Of a stretch of 39,688 bases of DNA, positions 4,019-39,688 are shown in pieces. Origin of the DNA: a virus; IMG/VR virus record IMGVR_UViG_3300017659_000002, positions 1 through 39,688 of that record, one strand, 5' to 3'. Each line of letters opens with the position of its first letter. Position 1 is the stretch's first letter. The notes below the pieces were generated by a model. That model was not told the DNA's origin. It made no database searches and saw only the letters and a list, made by a program, of their open reading frames with translations. The position numbers were made by a program, and so were the translations under genes.

Positions 4019-4396
4019 CTATGGCCGCCACTCCTCGCGGTAGCCGGGCCGGTCCGCGTAGGGCAGCGCGAGCAGCTTGACGGCGCCATGCAGGGCGAGC
4101 AGGGCGCCAGCGGATGCGAGGTCCTCCGGGTGAGCGCGGCGGTTTTCCATCGCGCGTTCGTGCCGCTCGACGAGTTGCCGCTTGGCGTCGATCTCGCGCA
4201 GCACCCGCGCCGGATCGTGGGCGGCGATGTGGTCGGCGTCTGCTGTCGTCAGGGCATCGGTCATCCAACTGTCCTCGACGCCGTAGTAGACGCCGCGCCG
4301 GCCGTCCGTCGACCAGTTGGGGACGTGTGCCGCCCGCGCGATCCGTTCGTCCTCGTCGAGCCGGGCGCCGAGCCACTGTGCGATGTCGTCGGTCAT
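4019..4396 (-). CDS. DUF6221-like actinobacterial protein
   Basis: 125 residues. The opening MTDDIAQWLGARLDEDERIA and the ending LLALPYADRPGYREEWRP match the pattern I know for the DUF6221 family of Streptomyces and its phages. The middle holds VLREIDAKRQLVERH, a conserved helix. The ATG at 4396 was chosen over 4405 because AGAGGA lies at normal spacing from it. Function unknown. Confidence 0.8.
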   Translation of the reverse strand: MTDDIAQWLGARLDEDERIARAAHVPNWSTDGRRGVYYGVEDSWMTDALTTADADHIAAHDPARVLREIDAKRQLVERHERAMENRRAHPEDLASAGALLALHGAVKLLALPYADRPGYREEWRP

Positions 4397-8731: not shown

Positions 8732-9294
8732 GCGACCTCGCCCCCGCTCTCGACGCCGAGGATGCGCCGCGGGTCGATCGGCTCGGGCCGCTCTCCCGGG
8801 GCGAAGGCGATGCATCCACAGCGGTTCTTCTCGTCGCCGAACTGGCACACCCCGCCTGGCGTGTGCCAGTTGTACGGGTGCGTGCAGACCGCGCAGGGCG
8901 TAGCCAGAGAGACGGGGCGCTTGCGTTCGGCGTGTGTCTCCTCGGCGGCCAGGGCGGGGAGGCCCTGCTGCTCGCGGAGCAGCTCGGCGAACTGGTCGCC
9001 GGACATGGTGACGAACCAGCGGCCGGGGTCGGTTGTGCCGCGCTTCTTGTGCCACACGACGCCGAGCGAGGCGCCGTCGTTGTGGCGCTCGCGCTCGGCC
9101 TCGGCGACCCAGCCGGGCAGTTCCTGCCGGGCGCAGTTCTTGACCTCGATGACGACGCCGGGGATTCCGGCGATGTCGCCGCGGTCGTGGGTGCCGTTGA
9201 GGGTGCGGCGCTCGACCTGAACGAACCCAGCGGCCCGCAGGAAGCGGACGACCGCGGTCTCAGCGGCGGTGCCTTTGGCCTTGGATCGGCTCAC
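8728..9294 (-). CDS. PD-(D/E)XK nuclease, resolvase-like
   Basis: 188 residues. The N-terminal domain has E12 (TAAETAVV), D40 (DRGDIAGI) and E50-x-K52 (VVIEVKNC), the order seen in small PD-(D/E)XK nucleases such as archaeal Hjc or phage VRR-like enzymes. A C-terminal Cys cluster follows (CAVC, C...CGC at about 130-165). The GTG at 9294 overlaps the upstream stop. It probably processes branched replication or recombination intermediates near the candidate origin; substrate inferred. Confidence 0.8.
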   Translation of the reverse strand: MSRSKAKGTAAETAVVRFLRAAGFVQVERRTLNGTHDRGDIAGIPGVVIEVKNCARQELPGWVAEAERERHNDGASLGVVWHKKRGTTDPGRWFVTMSGDQFAELLREQQGLPALAAEETHAERKRPVSLATPCAVCTHPYNWHTPGGVCQFGDEKNRCGCIAFAPGERPEPIDPRRILGVESGGEVA

Positions 9295-9638
9295 AGCAGG
9301 GTCTCCTGTACGGGGTGGGGCCGACAGTGGTGGTCGGCGATGACGGTGTGGGTGCAGCGGCCGGCGGCGATGTGCTCGGTGCTGCGCCAGCGGATGCGGG
9401 CGGTGACGAACTCGCGGTCGACGAGGCACCAGGTGATGCGTCCGGCGAGGCGGGCCAGGATCTCGGCGGCCGGGTCGAGCGGCGTCGGGTCGGCGTGCAC
9501 CTCGACGGCGGCGACGCGGTCGGGGGTGCGGGCGGTGAGGGTGTCGGCGCCACAGCGGGGGCAGGGCCGGAGGCGGGGAAGCTCGGCGGATGCCTGTGCG
9601 TGGTCGGCCGCGGTGGGCTTCGGCCGACGGGCGGTCAC
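9291..9638 (-). CDS. Hypothetical protein with zinc-knuckle motif
   Basis: 115 residues starting at the GTG at 9638, which overlaps the stop of the repeat-bearing gene. CPRCGADTL lies near residue 27, and GRCTHTV with DHHC near the C-terminus complete a possible metal site. The middle (LDREFVTARIRWRSTEH-like) is beta-rich. Not recognised. Confidence 0.6.
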   Translation of the reverse strand: MTARRPKPTAADHAQASAELPRLRPCPRCGADTLTARTPDRVAAVEVHADPTPLDPAAEILARLAGRITWCLVDREFVTARIRWRSTEHIAAGRCTHTVIADHHCRPHPVQETLL

Positions 9639-9928
9639 GGTCGGCCGCCATGACGCTTCGCATGACGCATGACGCTTATGACGCGTACTTCGGGATGACG
9701 GCCCGTGGGCGTGCGCGCGCACGCGATAGAGAGGAACAGGGAACGAAGCGTCATAAGCGTCATAAGCGTCATGGCCTGGGGTGATGGCCGCTTCGATGCG
9801 TCATGAGAAGCGTCATGATCTTGGAGTGATGCGTCATGGGAGAGCACTGCGTGAACGGCTCCCACGCCACAAGAGCCTCGGAGGGCATGACACATCGCCG
9901 GAATCGCATGACACATCGGGCGGCTCAT
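9635..9928 (-). CDS. Repeat-encoded 97-residue protein carrying the iteron array
   Basis: ATG at 9928 overlaps the primase stop (ATGA), and its own stop overlaps the next start (GTGA), so it looks like a true operon member. The protein is strange: it begins MSRPMCHAIPAMCHALRG, then has HDASLQDHDASHDAS and MTLMTLMTL. These are the translations of tandem 9-bp DNA repeats. The coding sequence may exist mainly to keep ribosomes moving through an origin, or the peptide may bind the repeats; both are inference. Confidence 0.55.
   Translation of the reverse strand: MSRPMCHAIPAMCHALRGSCGVGAVHAVLSHDASLQDHDASHDASKRPSPQAMTLMTLMTLRSLFLSIACARTPTGRHPEVRVISVMRHAKRHGGRP
9650..9837. repeat. Iteron-like 9-bp repeat array, candidate replication origin
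   Basis: Ten copies of a 9-mer close to AAGCGTCAT fall in 188 bases. Four are in one orientation (ATGACGCTT/AT/GT at 9650, 9662, 9669, 9678). Three are perfect tandem copies in the other (9746, 9755, 9764), followed by copies at 9796, 9808 and 9829. A related pair GCATGACACATCG lies at 9885 and 9906. The array sits directly after the primase/helicase gene, the usual place for a phage origin. Confidence 0.7.
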
Positions 9929-12444
9929 CGGGCACTCCCGGTGCGCTCCTGGAGCCGGATGCCGTCGAAGAACCGGAAGTGCATGTTGCGGTCCGAGCGG
10001 AGGTTGTACGGCGGCTTCTTGAGGACCCCGGCGAACTTCTTGGGGGTGACGGGCTCCTCGCCTTCCTGCTCGCACCACGTCTCGTAGGCGTCGCGCAGGA
10101 CCTTGCTCGGGGTCTGCATGCCGGGCGTGCTGGGGATGCCGACGGTGCACATGTCGGACACGAACCGGCCGACGGTGTCCTGCTCGCCCTGGTAGTCATC
10201 GGTCGCGGTCTGTACGGCGGCCGGGGTGGTGAGTCCGTGAGCGGAGTAGTCGGCGGCCCCGCGGATGAGCCAGGCGAGGATGGCCGGGCCCTCCTGGTCG
10301 ACGAGGTACTCCTCGAGGCTCGTGTCCCGCAGGTGCTCGGGCACGGTGTTGAGGAACGGGACGAGGCGCAGGCGCCGCCAGAACGCGGGACCGCCGGTGC
10401 GGACGGCGGGCCGGTGGTTGCCGAGGAGCCACAGGGTGTGGGTCGGGGCGAAGGAGAAGAAGTCCTGCCGCATGAACCGGCCGGTGATGATGTCGCGACC
10501 GGTGAGCATCTTGATCCGGGCCTCGGCGAAGCGTTGTCCGTCGTCGAGTTCGGAGGCGACGACGAAGCGGGCGCCGGCCAGCCGGGCGATCTCGGTGGGG
10601 TGGTTCGTGGCCGAGGAGGCGAGGAGCATTTCGGAGGGGGCGCTGATGCTGTAGCCGGTCTCTCCGATGCCGACGATCCGCATCACCGTGTCGGCGAGTG
10701 TGGACTTGCCGTTGGCGCCGTCGCCGAACGCGAAGGGCAGGAGCTGCTCGGTGACGGTGCCGATGAGGGAGAGGCCGAGGAGGCGCTGTACGTAGGTGAT
10801 CAGGTCGGGGTCGCTGCCGAAGGTGTCGGCGAGGAACGCGTCGAAGCGGGGAGCGGGCGCTTCGGGGTCGGGGGCGACGGCGGTGGTGCGGGTGTGGAGG
10901 GCGGCGGGGTCGGGGGTGCTGATGTCGCCGGTGCGCAGGTTGACGACGCCGCCGGGGGTGTTGAGCTGCCAGGGGCTGGCGTCGAGGGTGGCGAGCGGGG
11001 CGACGATGCGCGGGTCGGTGCGGGCGACCTTGACCATGGAGTCGAGGCCGCGGGCGGACAGTGAGCGGGCCTTGTGCTGCAGGTCGCCTTCGCCCTCGGG
11101 CAGGGATCGGGCGATGTCGCGGGCGAGTTCGGCGACGTGGCCGCGTTCGTCCCATGCCCAGCGGTGCCCGTCCCAGGTGAGCCATCCGCGCTGCGGGCAG
11201 TAGCGGATGGCCTGCTCGTTCTCGTCGACCAGGCGCAGGGCGTTGCCGTCGTCGGTGCGGGTGTAGACGCCGGGTCCGGCCTCGGCGGTGGGCTGGGGCT
11301 CGTCGACCTGGAGCGCGGCGCTGCCGTCGGTGCGGGGGGCGGGGACGGAGGCGAGGCGGCGGGCGGGTGCAGGGGCGGGCTGGCCGTAGCCCTGGGTGCG
11401 CAGGGCGCGGGCGGCGGCGCTGTGGTCGCCGCCGTGTTCGAGGAGGGCGTAGGCGCCGGGCTTGGTGTAGGGGCGCTCTGCCTCGAACTCGGTCGACGTG
11501 GTGAAGACGTACAGGCGGTCACGCTGTGGGTCGCGGCCGGTGCTGGCGGAGATGCCGATGGTCTTGCCGGGGCGCCGCCAGTAGGAGGTGTGGCCGTGGG
11601 TGAGGAGCAGCTGCCAGCCGTGGGGCTTGAGGATGTCGGTCCAGCTGGTGCGCTGCTCGTAGTCGTCGAGGGGGGACAGGCCGCCGGTCGTGGCCGCGGG
11701 GCCGGTGCCGAACAGGAAGGCGGCCGTGTCGTCGCCGGGCGCCGCGGTGGGGGTGGGGTCGCCAGGCTGCGGCATCGTGTCAAGCATGCGGGCGATGGCG
11801 AACAGGGCGTCTCGCTCGTCGGCGGTGATCTCGGCAATGGCGCCGGGCCCGCCGGCGAGCTGCTCCCACGGGCGGCCGCTCGGGTGGACGGGCCCGTGTG
11901 AGGGGGCGGTGACGACGAACCCGCCCTCGCCGCGCGTCTCGATGAGGTCGCGGATGAACACCTTGTCGGGCTTGTCGGCGAGGACGGCGCACTCCTGGTC
12001 GTCGAGCTCGTCGGGTTCGGCGGGGCGGCGGGCGAGCTTGGTGTTGCTGAGGACGGGGCCGCCGGTCACGCGGTAGATGAGGTGGTATCCGCCGGACGGG
12101 GTGCGCTCGCAGTACCCGCGTTTGATGGCGTCCCAGATGCCGCCGAGTCCGGACGCCTCGACGATTTCGCCGAAGGCTGTGTGCACGTCCTCGTCGACGG
12201 CGCGGCCCTCGAACTCCAGCATCTCGAGGTGGCCGGAGACGGCGCCGAGGATGATGCCGAGGCCGGGGTGCCCGTCGGCGAACCACGCGTGCAGCTGCTG
12301 CTCGTCGGCGCGTTCGGTCTGCGCCTGCTTCCACTGCCCGGCCGGGGCCTTGGTGCCGTTGGCGGCCGCACGGACGACGCTCGCGCCAGCAGCGTGCCAT
12401 GCGTGCGCCGCGGTGAGCGTGTCCTGCGTGGGCGTGGTGCTCAA
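9925..12444 (-). CDS. Primase-polymerase / SF3 helicase, P4 family
   Basis: 839 residues; the main replication initiator. The N-terminal third resembles bifunctional primase-polymerase domains (GLGIILGAVSGHLEMLEFEG, then RTPSGGYHLIYRV). The C-terminal third is a D5/P4-type superfamily-3 helicase with Walker A FGDGANGKST (about 573-582), Walker B FVVASELDD (about 626) and a motif C Asn in LLGNHRP (about 675). The TTG start at 12444 is chosen because GAGGAG lies eight bases upstream and the protein begins LSTTPTQD; earlier sequence in frame is low-complexity. It overlaps the repeat-bearing gene. Confidence 0.92.
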   Translation of the reverse strand: MSTTPTQDTLTAAHAWHAAGASVVRAAANGTKAPAGQWKQAQTERADEQQLHAWFADGHPGLGIILGAVSGHLEMLEFEGRAVDEDVHTAFGEIVEASGLGGIWDAIKRGYCERTPSGGYHLIYRVTGGPVLSNTKLARRPAEPDELDDQECAVLADKPDKVFIRDLIETRGEGGFVVTAPSHGPVHPSGRPWEQLAGGPGAIAEITADERDALFAIARMLDTMPQPGDPTPTAAPGDDTAAFLFGTGPAATTGGLSPLDDYEQRTSWTDILKPHGWQLLLTHGHTSYWRRPGKTIGISASTGRDPQRDRLYVFTTSTEFEAERPYTKPGAYALLEHGGDHSAAARALRTQGYGQPAPAPARRLASVPAPRTDGSAALQVDEPQPTAEAGPGVYTRTDDGNALRLVDENEQAIRYCPQRGWLTWDGHRWAWDERGHVAELARDIARSLPEGEGDLQHKARSLSARGLDSMVKVARTDPRIVAPLATLDASPWQLNTPGGVVNLRTGDISTPDPAALHTRTTAVAPDPEAPAPRFDAFLADTFGSDPDLITYVQRLLGLSLIGTVTEQLLPFAFGDGANGKSTLADTVMRIVGIGETGYSISAPSEMLLASSATNHPTEIARLAGARFVVASELDDGQRFAEARIKMLTGRDIITGRFMRQDFFSFAPTHTLWLLGNHRPAVRTGGPAFWRRLRLVPFLNTVPEHLRDTSLEEYLVDQEGPAILAWLIRGAADYSAHGLTTPAAVQTATDDYQGEQDTVGRFVSDMCTVGIPSTPGMQTPSKVLRDAYETWCEQEGEEPVTPKKFAGVLKKPPYNLRSDRNMHFRFFDGIRLQERTGSAR

Positions 12445-12480
12445 GGTGCGTGCTCCTCGGGGCGAGTTGAGTGGTGGTCC

Positions 12481-15869: not shown

Positions 15870-15899
15870 AGCATGTCAGAAGTCTGGGCGCCGTGTCCA
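15870..15899 (-). promoter_or_regulatory. Candidate early leftward promoter
   Basis: On the minus strand TGGACA (15894-15899) and CATGCT (15870-15875) are 18 bases apart. The -35 box lies inside operator copy 2, and copy 1 lies just past the expected start point. A bound repressor would block it, as expected of an early lytic promoter. Confidence 0.4.
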
Positions 15900-15910
15900 G
15901 ATTTTTGGGC
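15893..15910. promoter_or_regulatory. Operator copy 2 of the immunity region
   Basis: GTGTCCAGATTTTTGGGC, same ends as copy 1. It overlaps the -35 box of the candidate early promoter. A weaker related sequence lies at 15874-15892. Confidence 0.7.
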
Positions 15911-15960
15911 GCCGTGTCGCACTCGTTTCGGTCAAGCTCGTGACGTGGACTGGCCGAGGC

Positions 15961-15978
15961 GCCCAAGAACCTGGACAC
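15961..15978. promoter_or_regulatory. Operator copy 3, inverted
   Basis: GCCCAAGAACCTGGACAC; the opposite strand reads GTGTCCAGGTTCTTGGGC. It is inverted relative to copies 1 and 2 and nearer the rightward regulator gene, so it may control that promoter. Confidence 0.7.
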
Positions 15979-19564: not shown

Positions 19565-19887
19565 AGCCGCCGCCCCTCGCGGAGCGCGCGCCGCAGCTCC
19601 GCCGAGTCGGGGCAGTAGGCGCCGTTGTCGGTGCACTGCTCGCACATGGTGGTGTGGGTGACGAGCTGCACGTACACGCGGTCACGGGCACAGTCCGGGC
19701 AGGCGCGCGGAAACAGACGCCGGCCGGAGCTCTCGTCGTCGCGCTCGCCCAAGTCGACGGCGGGCCTGCCAAGCAGCACCGTGTCGCACCAGGCGCAGGA
19801 CCGGCCGCACTGCTGGGCCTCGCTCATGCTGCCGACGGGCGGCACTTCGACCGGGAACGTCTCTGTCGGTGCGTGGACGGTGCTCAT
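19561..19887 (-). CDS. Zinc-ribbon-like protein of the cargo region
   Basis: 108 residues. Three Cys pairs are seen: CAWC (about 32-35), CPDC (about 63-66) and CEQC (about 82-85), plus a later Cys, enough for one or two zinc sites. The ATG at 19887 has GGAGG eight bases upstream. It is divergent from the large XRE gene, an arrangement common in Streptomyces chromosomes. Confidence 0.7.
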   Translation of the reverse strand: MSTVHAPTETFPVEVPPVGSMSEAQQCGRSCAWCDTVLLGRPAVDLGERDDESSGRRLFPRACPDCARDRVYVQLVTHTTMCEQCTDNGAYCPDSAELRRALREGRRL

Positions 19888-29055: not shown

Positions 29056-32000
29056 CTATCCCTTGATGCGGACGGTGCCCTGAGCGCGCCCGTACCTGAG
29101 CAGGACCCGCTCCAGTTCGCGGGCCACGGCGACCGGGTCCATGGCCTTCTCGACGACGACGTTGATGTTCGTCACCGATCCGCCAGCCCCGGCGACGGCA
29201 GGCTTGCCCATGACGGGGCGGGTGGCGGCGACGCGGCCAGCCACGGCGCCGAGGGCGCGGTCGAGGGTGGGCATGCGGTCGACCAGGCCCACGGCCAGGC
29301 CTTCGGTGGAATGGCGTCCCACCTGCGCCATGACGGTGGACGGGCTCTTGATGCCGAGCGCCCGACGGATGGCCTTGTCCATCCCCTTGGCGATCTTCAG
29401 CATCTGCTTCTCGATGGCGTCCTGCTGGGATTGCAGCCCCTTGAGGAATCCCTTCCCCGCGTTCTTGCCCGAGTCGTACAGGGCATCAGCGCCGGACTTT
29501 CCGAGGGATTCCGCCTGGTCATTGATCTTGTACTGAGTGGAGTTGATCTCCTTGAACAGCTTGGAGTTCGCCCCCGCCAGAGCAGAGGCGTAGGCGTAGC
29601 CCTCCTCCGGCCCCATCTCCAAGATCTCGCGCAGCATCGTCTTGTTGAGGCCGCGCTTGGCGAGGGTCTTGATGTACGAGCTGAACGTCTTCATCTTGGC
29701 GAGCCGCTGCTGCAGCTTGGAGTTGATGCCCGATGCGGTGACCTGGTCGTCACCCTCGAACATGCCGCCCAGGCTGGCGCTCTTCTTCGCACCGACCCTG
29801 GTCGTCTCGGCGAAGTCCTTGGCGCGTTTCATCGCCGCAGCGATAGCGTCCCGCTTCCCCGCCAGGCTGGTCAGGGTCTTGGTCTGCCGGTTCACGTAGG
29901 CCACGAGCCGGTTGTCCTTGGACCCGGAGAAGGCACTCCAGATGTCCTTGGCCAGATCCTTGGATGTCGCCTTGATCTTGTCCTTGGATCCGGTCATGCC
30001 CTTGATCAGGCCGCTGCCCACGTCCTTGGCGAGAGCCGTGGTGCGCTTGGACGGGGACGCGATCTGCAGCTCCGTCTTGATGCCGGTCACGACCGCGGCC
30101 GCCATCCGGCGCGCAGCCGTGTCGACCAGGCCCGTGCTCGCGCCCATGCCGGCGGCCAGGCCGCGGGCCGTGTCCGCCCCAGCGCCGGTCATGCCGCCGG
30201 ACGCGAGGCCCGGCAGGTTCAGGCGGCCCTCGTTGACGGCGTTCATGAACGCGACGCCGTACTTCTTCACTGCGGCGCTACGCATGACGAACTCAGTGGC
30301 GGAGACCCGGGCCATGGCACCCGAGCCCATGAAGGCCAGGATGCTGTCGGATGTGGCAGTGCCGGGCCCGTCGACGTACCCGCCGCCGGGGAACGACTGG
30401 ACGCCGCCACCGCCCGCGTAGCCAGGCACACGCCCGCCACGAGCCAGCCGTCCGAACTGTGCAGGCGGGGGCTTTCCGACGGACACGAACCGGCTGTACG
30501 AGGTGAGCGTGATGCTCTTGTCGTGCAGATTGTTGATGGCTCTGGCCACTGCAGAAATGCTGCCGAGCGCCTGGCCGTTCGCCGTATACACGGCGGTCTT
30601 GCCGTTGGGAAGCTGCCTCGTCTTCAGGCCCACCGCTTCGAGCGCCTTGATAGCGGCACCGTTGAGCGTGTCCACCTTGACGGTCTTAGCGCCCGGGGTC
30701 CTTCTGATCGCCGCCTGGACTGCCTCCAGCCCGGTGACCGCTTCCTGACGCTCCAGCTTCACCAGGGTCTTGATCTGCCCCGGCGTCCCCAACAGGGTGT
30801 TGACGTAGGCGGTGGCCTTCTTCTTGTTGCCGTCGAACGCGTCCGTCGCGAGCCGCATCATCTCGCCGCGCAGCTGGGACGACTTGTTCGTCATCGATGC
30901 CAGCGAGTCGCCCGCCGCGAGACCCGACGCGATCAACTCGTCCTGAGCCTTGGCGGCCTGGGACATGGCCGTGCCGTTGTTCCTGCCGGCCTCGGTGCTG
31001 ATGTCGAGGGTCGAGCCGTTCTTCTTGAACGCCGCCGTCAGGTTGTCCAGCCCTGCCTCGAAGGAGATTTGCGCATCGTAGGCGCTGCGGTTGACGTCGT
31101 TCAGGGCGACGATGCTCTCCCGCAGCCCGTCGGCGCTCTGCTTCTGCGCGTCCAGTTGGAGCTTCGTCTTCTGTGCCTGCGAGCCGAAGATCCCCATTGC
31201 CTGGGCGGCGAGCTGCTGCTCGAACTTTGAGTCGGCGAGTGCCGACTTGTAGTCGTTGAGCTGGCTGGTGAACTTCTTGGTGTCGCGTCCGCCCTTGCCG
31301 TACTCCGCCGTGAGCCGCTTGAGGGCGGACGCCGCGAGGTCTGCCTGACCGTTCGAGACGAGCCCGGCCAGGGACTTGTCGATCGAGTCAATGTTGGCTT
31401 TGGCGTCTTTGACCGGGGTGGAGTCCCAGTCGCCGATGCCGCCCAACGTGACGATCCACTGCTGGACGTTCTCCATATTCGACGGATCGGTCAGCGCGCC
31501 GATCTTGTCGTGCAGGCCGCCGAGGTCGGAGCCGAAAGCCTTGGCCGCCTCCCCGGTCACCTTGCCCGTAGCACCCAGCTGACGTAGTGACACGGTGAGC
31601 TTGTCGACGTCCGGCGGTGCGGTCTCACTGCGCGCCGCAATCTCGGACAGGGCGATCAGGAGCAAGCCGATCCCGGTACCCGCCATGGCGACCTTCGCCG
31701 TACGCGACAGGGCCGCAATGCCCACACGCACCGCGGCGAGACGCGTCGGTGCAGCAGCGGCCGCCGTGTTCATCGCAACGATCTGCCCGGCGAACGCGAT
31801 CATCGCGCTCCGCCCGGCAGCCAGGCCGAGGGCCGCCAGCTTGGTGACCTTCAGTGCGACCGCGAGCTGCAGGATCATGGCGATGGCCGAGGCGGGGACG
31901 GCGGACACCAGGTCGGCCAGCACCTTGACGACTTGCAGCATGCCGACACCCACGTCGGCGCCCGCGTCGAGCAGGTGCACCAGCGCTTCACCGACGCTGC

Positions 32001-32856
32001 GCAGCACGCTGGCCACAGCGGGGCCCTGAGCGTGCGCCCAGTCCATGAAGGCGGACAGGCCGCCGCCCATGGCGCCGGTGTCCGCGACGCGGAGCAGGTG
32101 CACGATCTCGTCGTTGACCTTGCGCAGCGTGCCCGTCGCAAACGCCGTGAACTTGCTGTTCAACCTGTCCAGGCCGGGCGAGGCCATCTCGCCGCCGATG
32201 ACCGTCATGAACCGGTCGGCCTCGGCAGACGTCCCCTTCACCAAGTCCTTCGTCTTGGGCAGCAACGAGTTGGCGATCGAGACGCCCTTGATAAACGGGC
32301 CCATCGTGTCGCCCGCGAGACTGTCAGACCAAGCCTTGGTCTCGTCCTTTAGGACGCTGACCGACGCCGCAGCTTCCCGCGTCTTGGGCGGCAGCTGCGC
32401 CATGACCCGCTGATATTCGATCTGCGCCTGGACGGCCTCCGTCGAACGCGCGCCGCTCTTGCCGACCGCGTCCTCATACTTCTTGTGAGCCTCCGAGGCA
32501 TCACCGATCGCAGAGATCTGGGGAATCATCGCGGCGACCATCACGCCGGACGCCACGGCCACCGCGCCTGCACCAGCGGCGATCGGTGCGAGCGAGGCGG
32601 CGGCCGGGATGGCGGCCGGGGCCAGGCTGATCGCGGCCTTCTTCAGAGCCTCAAGCGACTTGGCCCCCAAGTCACTGTCGCGGTCGAGGTCGGCCAGGTT
32701 GCGGGTCGCGTTGTTGGTGAACCGGCGCATCGCGGCGTCGCCGTTGATGGACGCCGCCATAAGGCGGCGGCCGAGGCGGTCCGCCGAATCGCCCGCCCGG
32801 TCCAGAACCCGAGAGAGCTGGTCCCGGCCGGCGAGGATGAAGTCGAGGCGGGGCAT
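29056..32856 (-). CDS. Tape measure protein
   Basis: 1266 residues, the longest gene, starting MPRLDFILAGRDQLSRVLDR. Helical throughout, with hydrophobic stretches (about 80-115 and 330-410, e.g. ASLAPIAAGAGAVAVASGVM), repeated KTT/GDKS-type helices and a C-terminal segment INVVVEKAMDPVAVARELER typical of actinophage tape measures. It sets tail length and helps DNA entry. The start overlaps the GT stop (TGATG). By the usual 1.5 angstrom per residue rule the tail would be near 190 nm, an estimate. Confidence 0.93.
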   Translation of the reverse strand: MPRLDFILAGRDQLSRVLDRAGDSADRLGRRLMAASINGDAAMRRFTNNATRNLADLDRDSDLGAKSLEALKKAAISLAPAAIPAAASLAPIAAGAGAVAVASGVMVAAMIPQISAIGDASEAHKKYEDAVGKSGARSTEAVQAQIEYQRVMAQLPPKTREAAASVSVLKDETKAWSDSLAGDTMGPFIKGVSIANSLLPKTKDLVKGTSAEADRFMTVIGGEMASPGLDRLNSKFTAFATGTLRKVNDEIVHLLRVADTGAMGGGLSAFMDWAHAQGPAVASVLRSVGEALVHLLDAGADVGVGMLQVVKVLADLVSAVPASAIAMILQLAVALKVTKLAALGLAAGRSAMIAFAGQIVAMNTAAAAAPTRLAAVRVGIAALSRTAKVAMAGTGIGLLLIALSEIAARSETAPPDVDKLTVSLRQLGATGKVTGEAAKAFGSDLGGLHDKIGALTDPSNMENVQQWIVTLGGIGDWDSTPVKDAKANIDSIDKSLAGLVSNGQADLAASALKRLTAEYGKGGRDTKKFTSQLNDYKSALADSKFEQQLAAQAMGIFGSQAQKTKLQLDAQKQSADGLRESIVALNDVNRSAYDAQISFEAGLDNLTAAFKKNGSTLDISTEAGRNNGTAMSQAAKAQDELIASGLAAGDSLASMTNKSSQLRGEMMRLATDAFDGNKKKATAYVNTLLGTPGQIKTLVKLERQEAVTGLEAVQAAIRRTPGAKTVKVDTLNGAAIKALEAVGLKTRQLPNGKTAVYTANGQALGSISAVARAINNLHDKSITLTSYSRFVSVGKPPPAQFGRLARGGRVPGYAGGGGVQSFPGGGYVDGPGTATSDSILAFMGSGAMARVSATEFVMRSAAVKKYGVAFMNAVNEGRLNLPGLASGGMTGAGADTARGLAAGMGASTGLVDTAARRMAAAVVTGIKTELQIASPSKRTTALAKDVGSGLIKGMTGSKDKIKATSKDLAKDIWSAFSGSKDNRLVAYVNRQTKTLTSLAGKRDAIAAAMKRAKDFAETTRVGAKKSASLGGMFEGDDQVTASGINSKLQQRLAKMKTFSSYIKTLAKRGLNKTMLREILEMGPEEGYAYASALAGANSKLFKEINSTQYKINDQAESLGKSGADALYDSGKNAGKGFLKGLQSQQDAIEKQMLKIAKGMDKAIRRALGIKSPSTVMAQVGRHSTEGLAVGLVDRMPTLDRALGAVAGRVAATRPVMGKPAVAGAGGSVTNINVVVEKAMDPVAVARELERVLLRYGRAQGTVRIKG

Positions 32857-38811: not shown

Positions 38812-39688
38812 TCACTGGCCGGTCTCTTCTGGCTTCGCGGTGGCGAGCGGCAGCTGCTTGTCGCCGCCGGGCAGCGGCGCCATGTCCTCGATGTCGCGCG
38901 CCTCGTTCGGCACCATGAACTGATTGCGCAGCGCGATGGCATGGGCCTTGTACCGAGTCAGCAGGTCCGTGCGCGCCAGGGCAGAGCGGTTGAACTTCAC
39001 GTACTGGCCGGCAGGCAGCAGCCCCGTGAACATGCGCTCCGTGCGCACGAGCCACCGGTCGAGCGCGTAGGTCAGCAGGTCGAGTGAGCGCTGCTCGACG
39101 TTCGCGTAGGTCATGCTGCCGCCGGTCTCATAGCCGAGGATCTCGGGCATGCCCGGCCCGTACACGCGGGCGCACTCGGCCGCGGTGTACTTCTGCGTCT
39201 CCAGGAACTGCGACTCTTCCGGGGCCACCTGGATCTGCTGGTACTTCCAGCCCTGTCCCAGGACGACCGGTTCGCGGGTGCCGCGCAGCGCGGACATGAA
39301 CCGTTCCTTCGCCGTCTGCGCCTGCTTCGCGTCCAGCGCCTGCTCGTTGGTCAGCAGCCCCGAAGGGTGCGCGCCGTCCTCGAACCACTGGATCCCGAAG
39401 CGGGTCGCCGCGATACCGAGGCCGATCGTCTGCGCGTGATGGGCAACCGGCGACAGGCCGAGCAGACGGCCAGGGATCGAGTAGGCGCGCTGGTGCCACA
39501 TGTCCGCCGGCTCGTCGACCAGCTCGCCGCACACGCGCCAACGGGGCAGGCCGTCCTTGGGGTCGCGCCAGCCCTGCACCTCGTCGGGGTGGTAGAGCAC
39601 GATCTGTGTCGGGTTGCCGAGCCGGTCGCGGTCCGCGGTCTTCCCGTAGGTGTTGCCGCGCAGCAAGATCGACATCATGTACTGATAC
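38812..39688 (-). CDS. HK97-family portal protein, main part (split by window ends)
   Basis: This is the rest of the portal gene whose start is at 407. Positions 39566-39688 duplicate 1-123, so the gene is read 407 to 1, then 39565 to 38812. Portal motifs are SILLRGNTYGKTADRDRLGN, RFGIQWFEDGAHPSGLLTN, SQFLETQKYTAAECARVYGP and the closing FNRSALARTDLLTRYKAHAI. The protein ends just before the protease start. Confidence 0.95.
   Translation of the reverse strand, partial: YQYMMSILLRGNTYGKTADRDRLGNPTQIVLYHPDEVQGWRDPKDGLPRWRVCGELVDEPADMWHQRAYSIPGRLLGLSPVAHHAQTIGLGIAATRFGIQWFEDGAHPSGLLTNEQALDAKQAQTAKERFMSALRGTREPVVLGQGWKYQQIQVAPEESQFLETQKYTAAECARVYGPGMPEILGYETGGSMTYANVEQRSLDLLTYALDRWLVRTERMFTGLLPAGQYVKFNRSALARTDLLTRYKAHAIALRNQFMVPNEARDIEDMAPLPGGDKQLPLATAKPEETGQ
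39566..39688. repeat. Terminal direct repeat, right copy
   Basis: Identical to 1-123. Removing one copy gives the circular unit and restores a single intact portal gene. Confidence 0.97.

Follow-up and report, generated by a model that had tools for sequence, protein, structure and literature searches.

What does a dense array of 9-bp repeats do in a short open reading frame between a phage primase-helicase gene and the gene that follows it? The window analysed here is the whole stretch of 39,688 bp of viral DNA. An earlier note, made from the letters of the window, had proposed that the array is a replication origin embedded in a translated gene. Our analysis indicates that the array is very probably the DNA replication origin of the phage. 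This reading draws on the anatomy of the array, on covariation and on relatives that are annotated or published. The frame across the array is a separate matter and is treated separately below.

The repeat array and its initiator gene

The whole 39,688 bp was scanned for AAGCGTCAT with up to one mismatch. Ten copies were found, all of them at 9650-9837 (188 nt). None was observed outside this interval; the expectation over the full 39,688 bp is 4.9 matches. By a rough Poisson calculation, the chance of ten copies within 188 nt is about 1e-23. The ten 9-mers reported earlier were thus recovered, together with the three perfectly tandem ones, which are the block B copies at 9746, 9755 and 9764 (9746-9772, 9-bp period). 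The description of two blocks in opposite orientation was right for the four minus-strand and six plus-strand copies, but it overlooked a third block with two variant copies, ATGACACAT, at 9887-9895 and 9908-9916. The total is therefore 12 copies in three blocks (Table 1). On the minus (coding) strand, the primase stop codon is followed 9 nt later by the two copies of block A, then by the six opposed copies of block B with the tandem ones as the last three, the core, the four copies of block C facing B, and the next gene. Blocks B and C form a dyad with two arm pairings. The first has arms of 16 bp (9669-9684 and 9748-9763) and a loop of 63 nt, and the second has arms of 17 bp (9668-9684 and 9757-9773) and a loop of 72 nt.

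Table 1. Positions of the array, the frame and the neighbouring genes in the window.
Feature	Position	Strand	Remark
Next gene, small CxxC protein (phrog_16156)	9291..9638	-	GTGA coupling to the frame through the array
Coupled open frame (97 aa, P0001) through the array	9635..9928	-	shares ATGA with the primase stop and GTGA with the start of the next gene
Iteron block C	9650..9686	-	four copies (9650, 9662, 9669, 9678); coding-strand orientation GCGTCAT
Dyad formed by blocks B and C	9668..9773	.	two arm pairings
Putative origin core, 59 nt, between convergent blocks C and B	9687..9745	.	alternating run GCGTGCGCGCGCACGCG at 9709-9725
Iteron block B	9746..9837	+	six copies (9746, 9755, 9764, 9796, 9808, 9829)
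Iteron block A	9887..9916	-	two variant copies ATGACACAT (9887, 9908)
Initiator (primase-helicase) gene	9925..12453	-	PrimPol (PF09250), D5_N/SF3 helicase (PF08706, TIGR01613) and C-terminal domain
C-terminal winged-helix (Pox_D5-like) domain of the initiator	9928..10242	-	proposed iteron reader

The core is GC-rich, and on the coding strand GTTCC comes before the CG run, as it does in several relatives. This run (17 nt) is one of two alternating purine-pyrimidine runs of at least 14 nt in the window. We tentatively suggest that it may be a melting or Z-DNA element. The other run, TGCACGTACACGCG at 19667-19680, has no flanking iterons. Further repeats were seen elsewhere in the window: an imperfect 21-bp inverted repeat at 15893-15978 (score 15, 44-nt loop), and CCAAGGAC, which occurs five times in 300 nt at about 29800-30100 inside a long gene (29056-32856).

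The window iteron forms one array in the whole record. The record appears to be a complete circular genome (about 39,565 bp) that was cut inside the portal gene; the window ends, 1-123 and 39566-39688, are identical over 123 bp, and the portal gene continues through the junction when they are joined. The GC skew of the window has no turning point marking the array and is uninformative as an origin marker. No Rfam match to 9200-10300 was obtained up to E=1. The search for close DNA relatives gave one weak match among phage records, located in the primase, and none among plasmid records.

The initiator gene was delimited with an approximate start codon, and its longest frame reaches 12720. The protein matches TIGR01613 (phage/plasmid primase, P4 family; a C-terminal model) at 4.9e-84. 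Its last 105 residues are Pox_D5-like. PF03288 was found at the C-terminus in 12 of 13 members, and the window protein itself falls just under the curated cut-off. With a PrimPol domain, a D5_N/SF3 helicase and a C-terminal winged helix, the window initiator is a P4-family PrimPol/D5 protein. The AlphaFold model of the C-terminal domain (mean pLDDT 78) gave its best matches to the RFX DNA-binding domain on DNA, to D5-family PrimPol chains and to Cdc6/Orc1 on origin DNA. The model of the whole initiator was of moderate quality (mean pLDDT 72.8, pTM 0.42) and matched D5-family dodecamers and double hexamers; the D5 relatives in the PDB include dodecamers and one head-to-head double hexamer. Structure 7ola, which we take to be SaPI5 Rep, is a sequence relative of the initiator (E=3e-4).

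The reading frame across the array

The frame reads HDAS three times and MTLMTLMTL, as the earlier note had stated, and its ATGA and GTGA overlaps with the primase and the next gene were confirmed. The same arrangement was found in 19 actinobacterial loci in which the primase ends with [AG]TGA. In each, the frame from the overlap is open and reaches the next gene with a terminal [AG]TGA or TGATG. The other two forward frames are interrupted by 2-7 stops. The probability of an open frame in shuffles was 0.05-0.29 per locus. The coupling has exceptions. The frame runs on for 196 codons in L021/L184, the array of phage RootBeer lies past another gene, and the frame is uncoupled in loci where the primase ends with CTGA.

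An open and coupled frame in 19 loci is what would be expected of a genuine repeat-containing protein gene, in which the DNA repeats follow the peptide repeats. However, the substitutions outside the iterons are flat by codon position (0.354/0.340/0.346). The dN/dS of the frame is 0.80, and 0.95 in a second family, compared with 0.34 and 0.15 for the primase. Many columns in the more distant members align partly out of frame, and the peptide has no Pfam or NCBIfam match. In addition, iterons are present on both strands, and comparable arrays in many other relatives are non-coding. With even substitutions across codon positions, a dN/dS of about 0.8-0.95 and no purifying selection detected, 9635-9928 was rejected as a protein-coding gene, and we consider that explanation highly improbable. 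The proposal of an origin in a translated gene thus holds for an open and coupled frame in the actinobacterial loci, but not for a conserved peptide. Since the frame is open and coupled while selection at the protein level is absent, it is kept open for something other than its peptide. The likeliest reason would be a relay that brings ribosomes from the primase gene into its downstream neighbour, a reading that we believe and doubt in equal measure.

Relatives and known origins

Relatives of the window primase-helicase were collected as 336 loci, of which 253 were unique with enough downstream sequence, and these were grouped into 71 clusters at 70% identity. Because the clusters were gathered by similarity to this primase-helicase, the following frequencies hold for its relatives only. 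An inverted repeat with a score of at least 14, no more than 230 nt 3' of the primase gene, was present in 37 of the 71 clusters, compared with 0/71, 0/71 and 1/67 in three control regions and 0/426 shuffles; about half of the clusters missed this threshold within the 230 nt. An alternating purine-pyrimidine run of at least 14 nt was present in 38 of 71 clusters, compared with 0, 0 and 1 in the controls and 2.8% of the shuffles. The runs consist mostly of CG steps. Where an inverted-repeat locus had a run of 10 nt or longer (32 loci), the run lay in the loop in 28. The modal repeat lag was 9 in 40 of 74 clusters 3' of the gene, compared with 4 of 74 inside the gene as a control. Of 33 full-length relatives, 25 had a single 7-mer in five or more copies within the 350 nt downstream of the gene, compared with 10 of 165 control segments. 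The layout extends far beyond actinophages. The iteron sequences themselves vary widely among the relatives (GCGTCAT, AGTACCCC, AGTGACAG, AGGGACAG, AGTGCCG and others). Such an array lies directly after the primase in MarkPhew and about 0.3 kb after it, beyond the intervening gene, in RootBeer. When the region 3' of the primase was scanned, no array was found in Arthrobacter phage Shambre1, and neither an iteron array nor a strong inverted repeat in Bordetella phage BPP-1. A stem-loop has been published for BIP-1, a near-twin of BPP-1 (PMC4234260).

The inverted repeat might instead act by itself as a hairpin or cruciform, with incidental direct repeats, as a stem-loop origin of the pRN1 type. 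In pRN1, a stem-loop of about 100 nt (21-nt stem, 58-nt loop) 3' of ORF904 is essential, and its sequence is not conserved. Replication needs the symmetry of the stem, and a lethal stem change is rescued once symmetry is restored; for the pRN plasmids, the authors were unable to find an origin of the AT-rich iteron type (PMC4234260). ORF904 has the same PrimPol-SF3-WH domain order as the window initiator, and the window agrees with the pRN1 geometry (stem of about 20 nt and loop of about 60 nt, 3' of a PrimPol-SF3-WH gene) in its arms of 16-17 bp and loops of 63-72 nt. Some arms in relatives reach past the iterons (L126, L127). Moreover, 33 of 47 columns that differ between tandem copies in one arm are mirrored in the other arm, a count that is biased because the inverted repeat was picked for the identity of its arms. 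On the other hand, the arms are tandem repeats in 42 of 43 inverted repeats, with a period of 9 in 26 and 10 in 9. In the window the arms are clear tandem iterons, and both the window and its relatives have additional iteron copies beyond the dyad. A pure stem-loop is therefore judged unlikely.

The layout is shared by two annotated relatives. In the record of phage P4, crr is annotated directly 3' of alpha; its type 1 repeats, at 4314 and 4323, have a 9-bp spacing and are opposed by inverted copies at 4366 and 4384. This is the same layout as that of the window array. In contrast, P4 has two separate sites (ori1 and crr) where the window has one array, and the P4 core is without CG alternation. 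The window array does not belong to the bipartite type of P4 because a second iteron site is absent. The record of Streptococcus phage Sfi21 has a 302-bp non-coding origin annotated immediately after the primase gene. Within it, tandem units make up an 18-bp inverted repeat, CTTTAGTTACTTAGTTAC, whose 71-nt loop carries an AT-alternating run. The position 3' of the primase and the inverted tandem units around an alternating loop are shared with the window, whereas the AT-rich core, the 8-bp period, the non-coding annotation and the low-GC Firmicute host are different.

In the PICIs the origin lies on the 3' side of the initiator gene, and its two sets of iterons enclose an AT-rich region (PMC6092414). 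SaPI5 Rep and the Cch2 type of PICI and SCCmec elements resemble the window system in their self-loading D5-type initiator, in the origin directly 3' of its gene and in the iteron sets, and the C-terminal domain of these initiators reads the iterons (PMC7581432; PMC6092414). The window array likewise lies immediately 3' of the initiator gene with two iteron sets. However, the AT-rich region between the iterons is absent, its place being taken by a GC-rich core with an alternating CG run, and the array falls outside the PICI type because its core is not AT-rich. The window origin also differs in lying in an open coupled frame of a full phage.

Among openly accessible papers, no literature was found that combines iteron, primase and actinobacteriophage, or prim-pol and iteron. 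The description of the arrangement as poorly described was only partly right, since the SaPI/PICI, P4, Sfi21 and pRN1 origins are of the same kind. The kind is already known, while the CG-rich core, the matched swapping of iterons and C-terminal domains and the open frame across the origin look undescribed. Good support for an origin that is coupled to a primase of the P4 type comes from the TIGR01613 match, from the recurrence of the layout and from the two phages with annotated replication elements.

Iterons, the initiator C-terminus and a proposed mechanism

The relation between the iterons and the initiator was evaluated by Mantel tests on 24 actinobacterial loci. The iteron distance correlated with the distance of the C-terminus (r=0.68) and of SF3 (0.60), and hardly with that of PrimPol (0.13). 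The partial correlation was 0.41 for the C-terminus given SF3 (p=0.0005) and 0.03 for SF3 given the C-terminus (not significant). The C-terminal partial correlation was weaker (0.26, p=0.063) when the loci were thinned to 11 well-separated ones. Over all pairs, C-terminal identity was 0.656 with the same iterons and 0.566 with different iterons, which is the expected direction but confounded with core identity (0.841 vs 0.812). Judged from these comparisons, the divergence of the iterons parallels that of the C-terminal winged helix in the initiator.

This covariation also bears on whether the array might be a set of repressor operators that control the replication operon and contain no origin. 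Clustered inverted and direct repeats are known at operators too, and the array sits inside the operon. However, it is found at the 3' end of the primase-helicase gene and recurs beside the same gene in unrelated hosts, its sequence tracks the C-terminal domain of the initiator itself, and its counterparts in P4 and Sfi21 carry replication annotations. Operators without an origin are thus very unlikely.

In one clade (L374, L376 and L379), the primase is 47-48% identical to that of the window and no array lies 3' of it. The earlier note had named relatives with the same primase but no repeats at this place as a refutation. This clade lacks the array here, yet an iteron-dyad element of the same kind lies about 7-9 kb from the primase (near 14150-14400 in L374, 17860-18100 in L376 and 2450-2700 in L379). 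Over about 60 nt, including ACGCGCGCAGGGAA, the three cores are almost identical, and the iterons differ (AGTGACCG, CAGGGCGCG and GGGGCGCGAT, respectively). Therefore, the core is conserved and the iterons are exchangeable, and the distant arrays indicate that both the adjacency to the primase and the coding frame are dispensable. Arrays away from the primase in three relatives would also suit a packaging, partition or incompatibility site that lies beside the window primase by chance, and iteron arrays can serve partition or incompatibility. Against this, replication is favoured by the association of the array with the initiator and with the C-terminal domain of this protein, and by the resemblance to the annotated elements of P4 and Sfi21, so that a chance neighbour has little probability. 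The array may still have one of these functions as a second role besides replication.

For the replication origin, the following mechanism is proposed. The C-terminal winged helix of the primase-helicase would bind the iterons, and from subunits on the two opposed blocks a pair of helicase rings would form face to face. Between the blocks the core would melt, and the PrimPol domain would prime both strands, giving bidirectional replication. The frame across the array would carry ribosomes over from the primase gene into the following gene without encoding a selected protein. More generally, P4-family (PrimPol/D5) replicons across bacteria may share a modular plan of convergent iteron blocks of about 9 bp and an alternating, Z-DNA-prone core. 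In this plan the core would be kept and the iterons exchanged with the C-terminal winged helix of the initiator, which would create new and mutually compatible specificities, and the actinophage origin would lie inside a translated, non-selected relay frame. Taken with all its parts, this plan has about an even chance of being right. The recurring layout brings together the formerly separate descriptions of the Sfi21 origin, P4 crr, PICI iterons and pRN1 stem-loops. It also provides a simple rule for finding candidate origins in a very common family of phage primase-helicases: the first few hundred bases past the 3' end of the gene are searched for tandem iterons, each about 9 bp long, that are inverted on either side of an alternating core.

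Natural swaps make it testable how a helicase-initiator changes its origin specificity, and whether an alternating GC-rich core stands in for the usual AT-rich melting element. Such swaps are offered by the three phages with one core and three iteron sets and by two prophages (L089 and L090) in a single strain, Nocardiopsis salina YIM 90010. The latter are the cleanest case, with near-identical primase-helicases and different iterons and C-terminal domains. This swap and the covariation described above give indirect support to iteron binding by the C-terminal domain of the initiator. One interpretation is that selection for non-interfering origins in co-resident elements may have driven this swap. 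The two proteins are 93% identical in PrimPol, 94% in SF3 and 65% in the C-terminus, and their iterons are unrelated (AGTACCCC vs AGTGACAGC). The DNA identity of the two prophages is 0.33-0.50 over the array and returns to 0.91 just after it.
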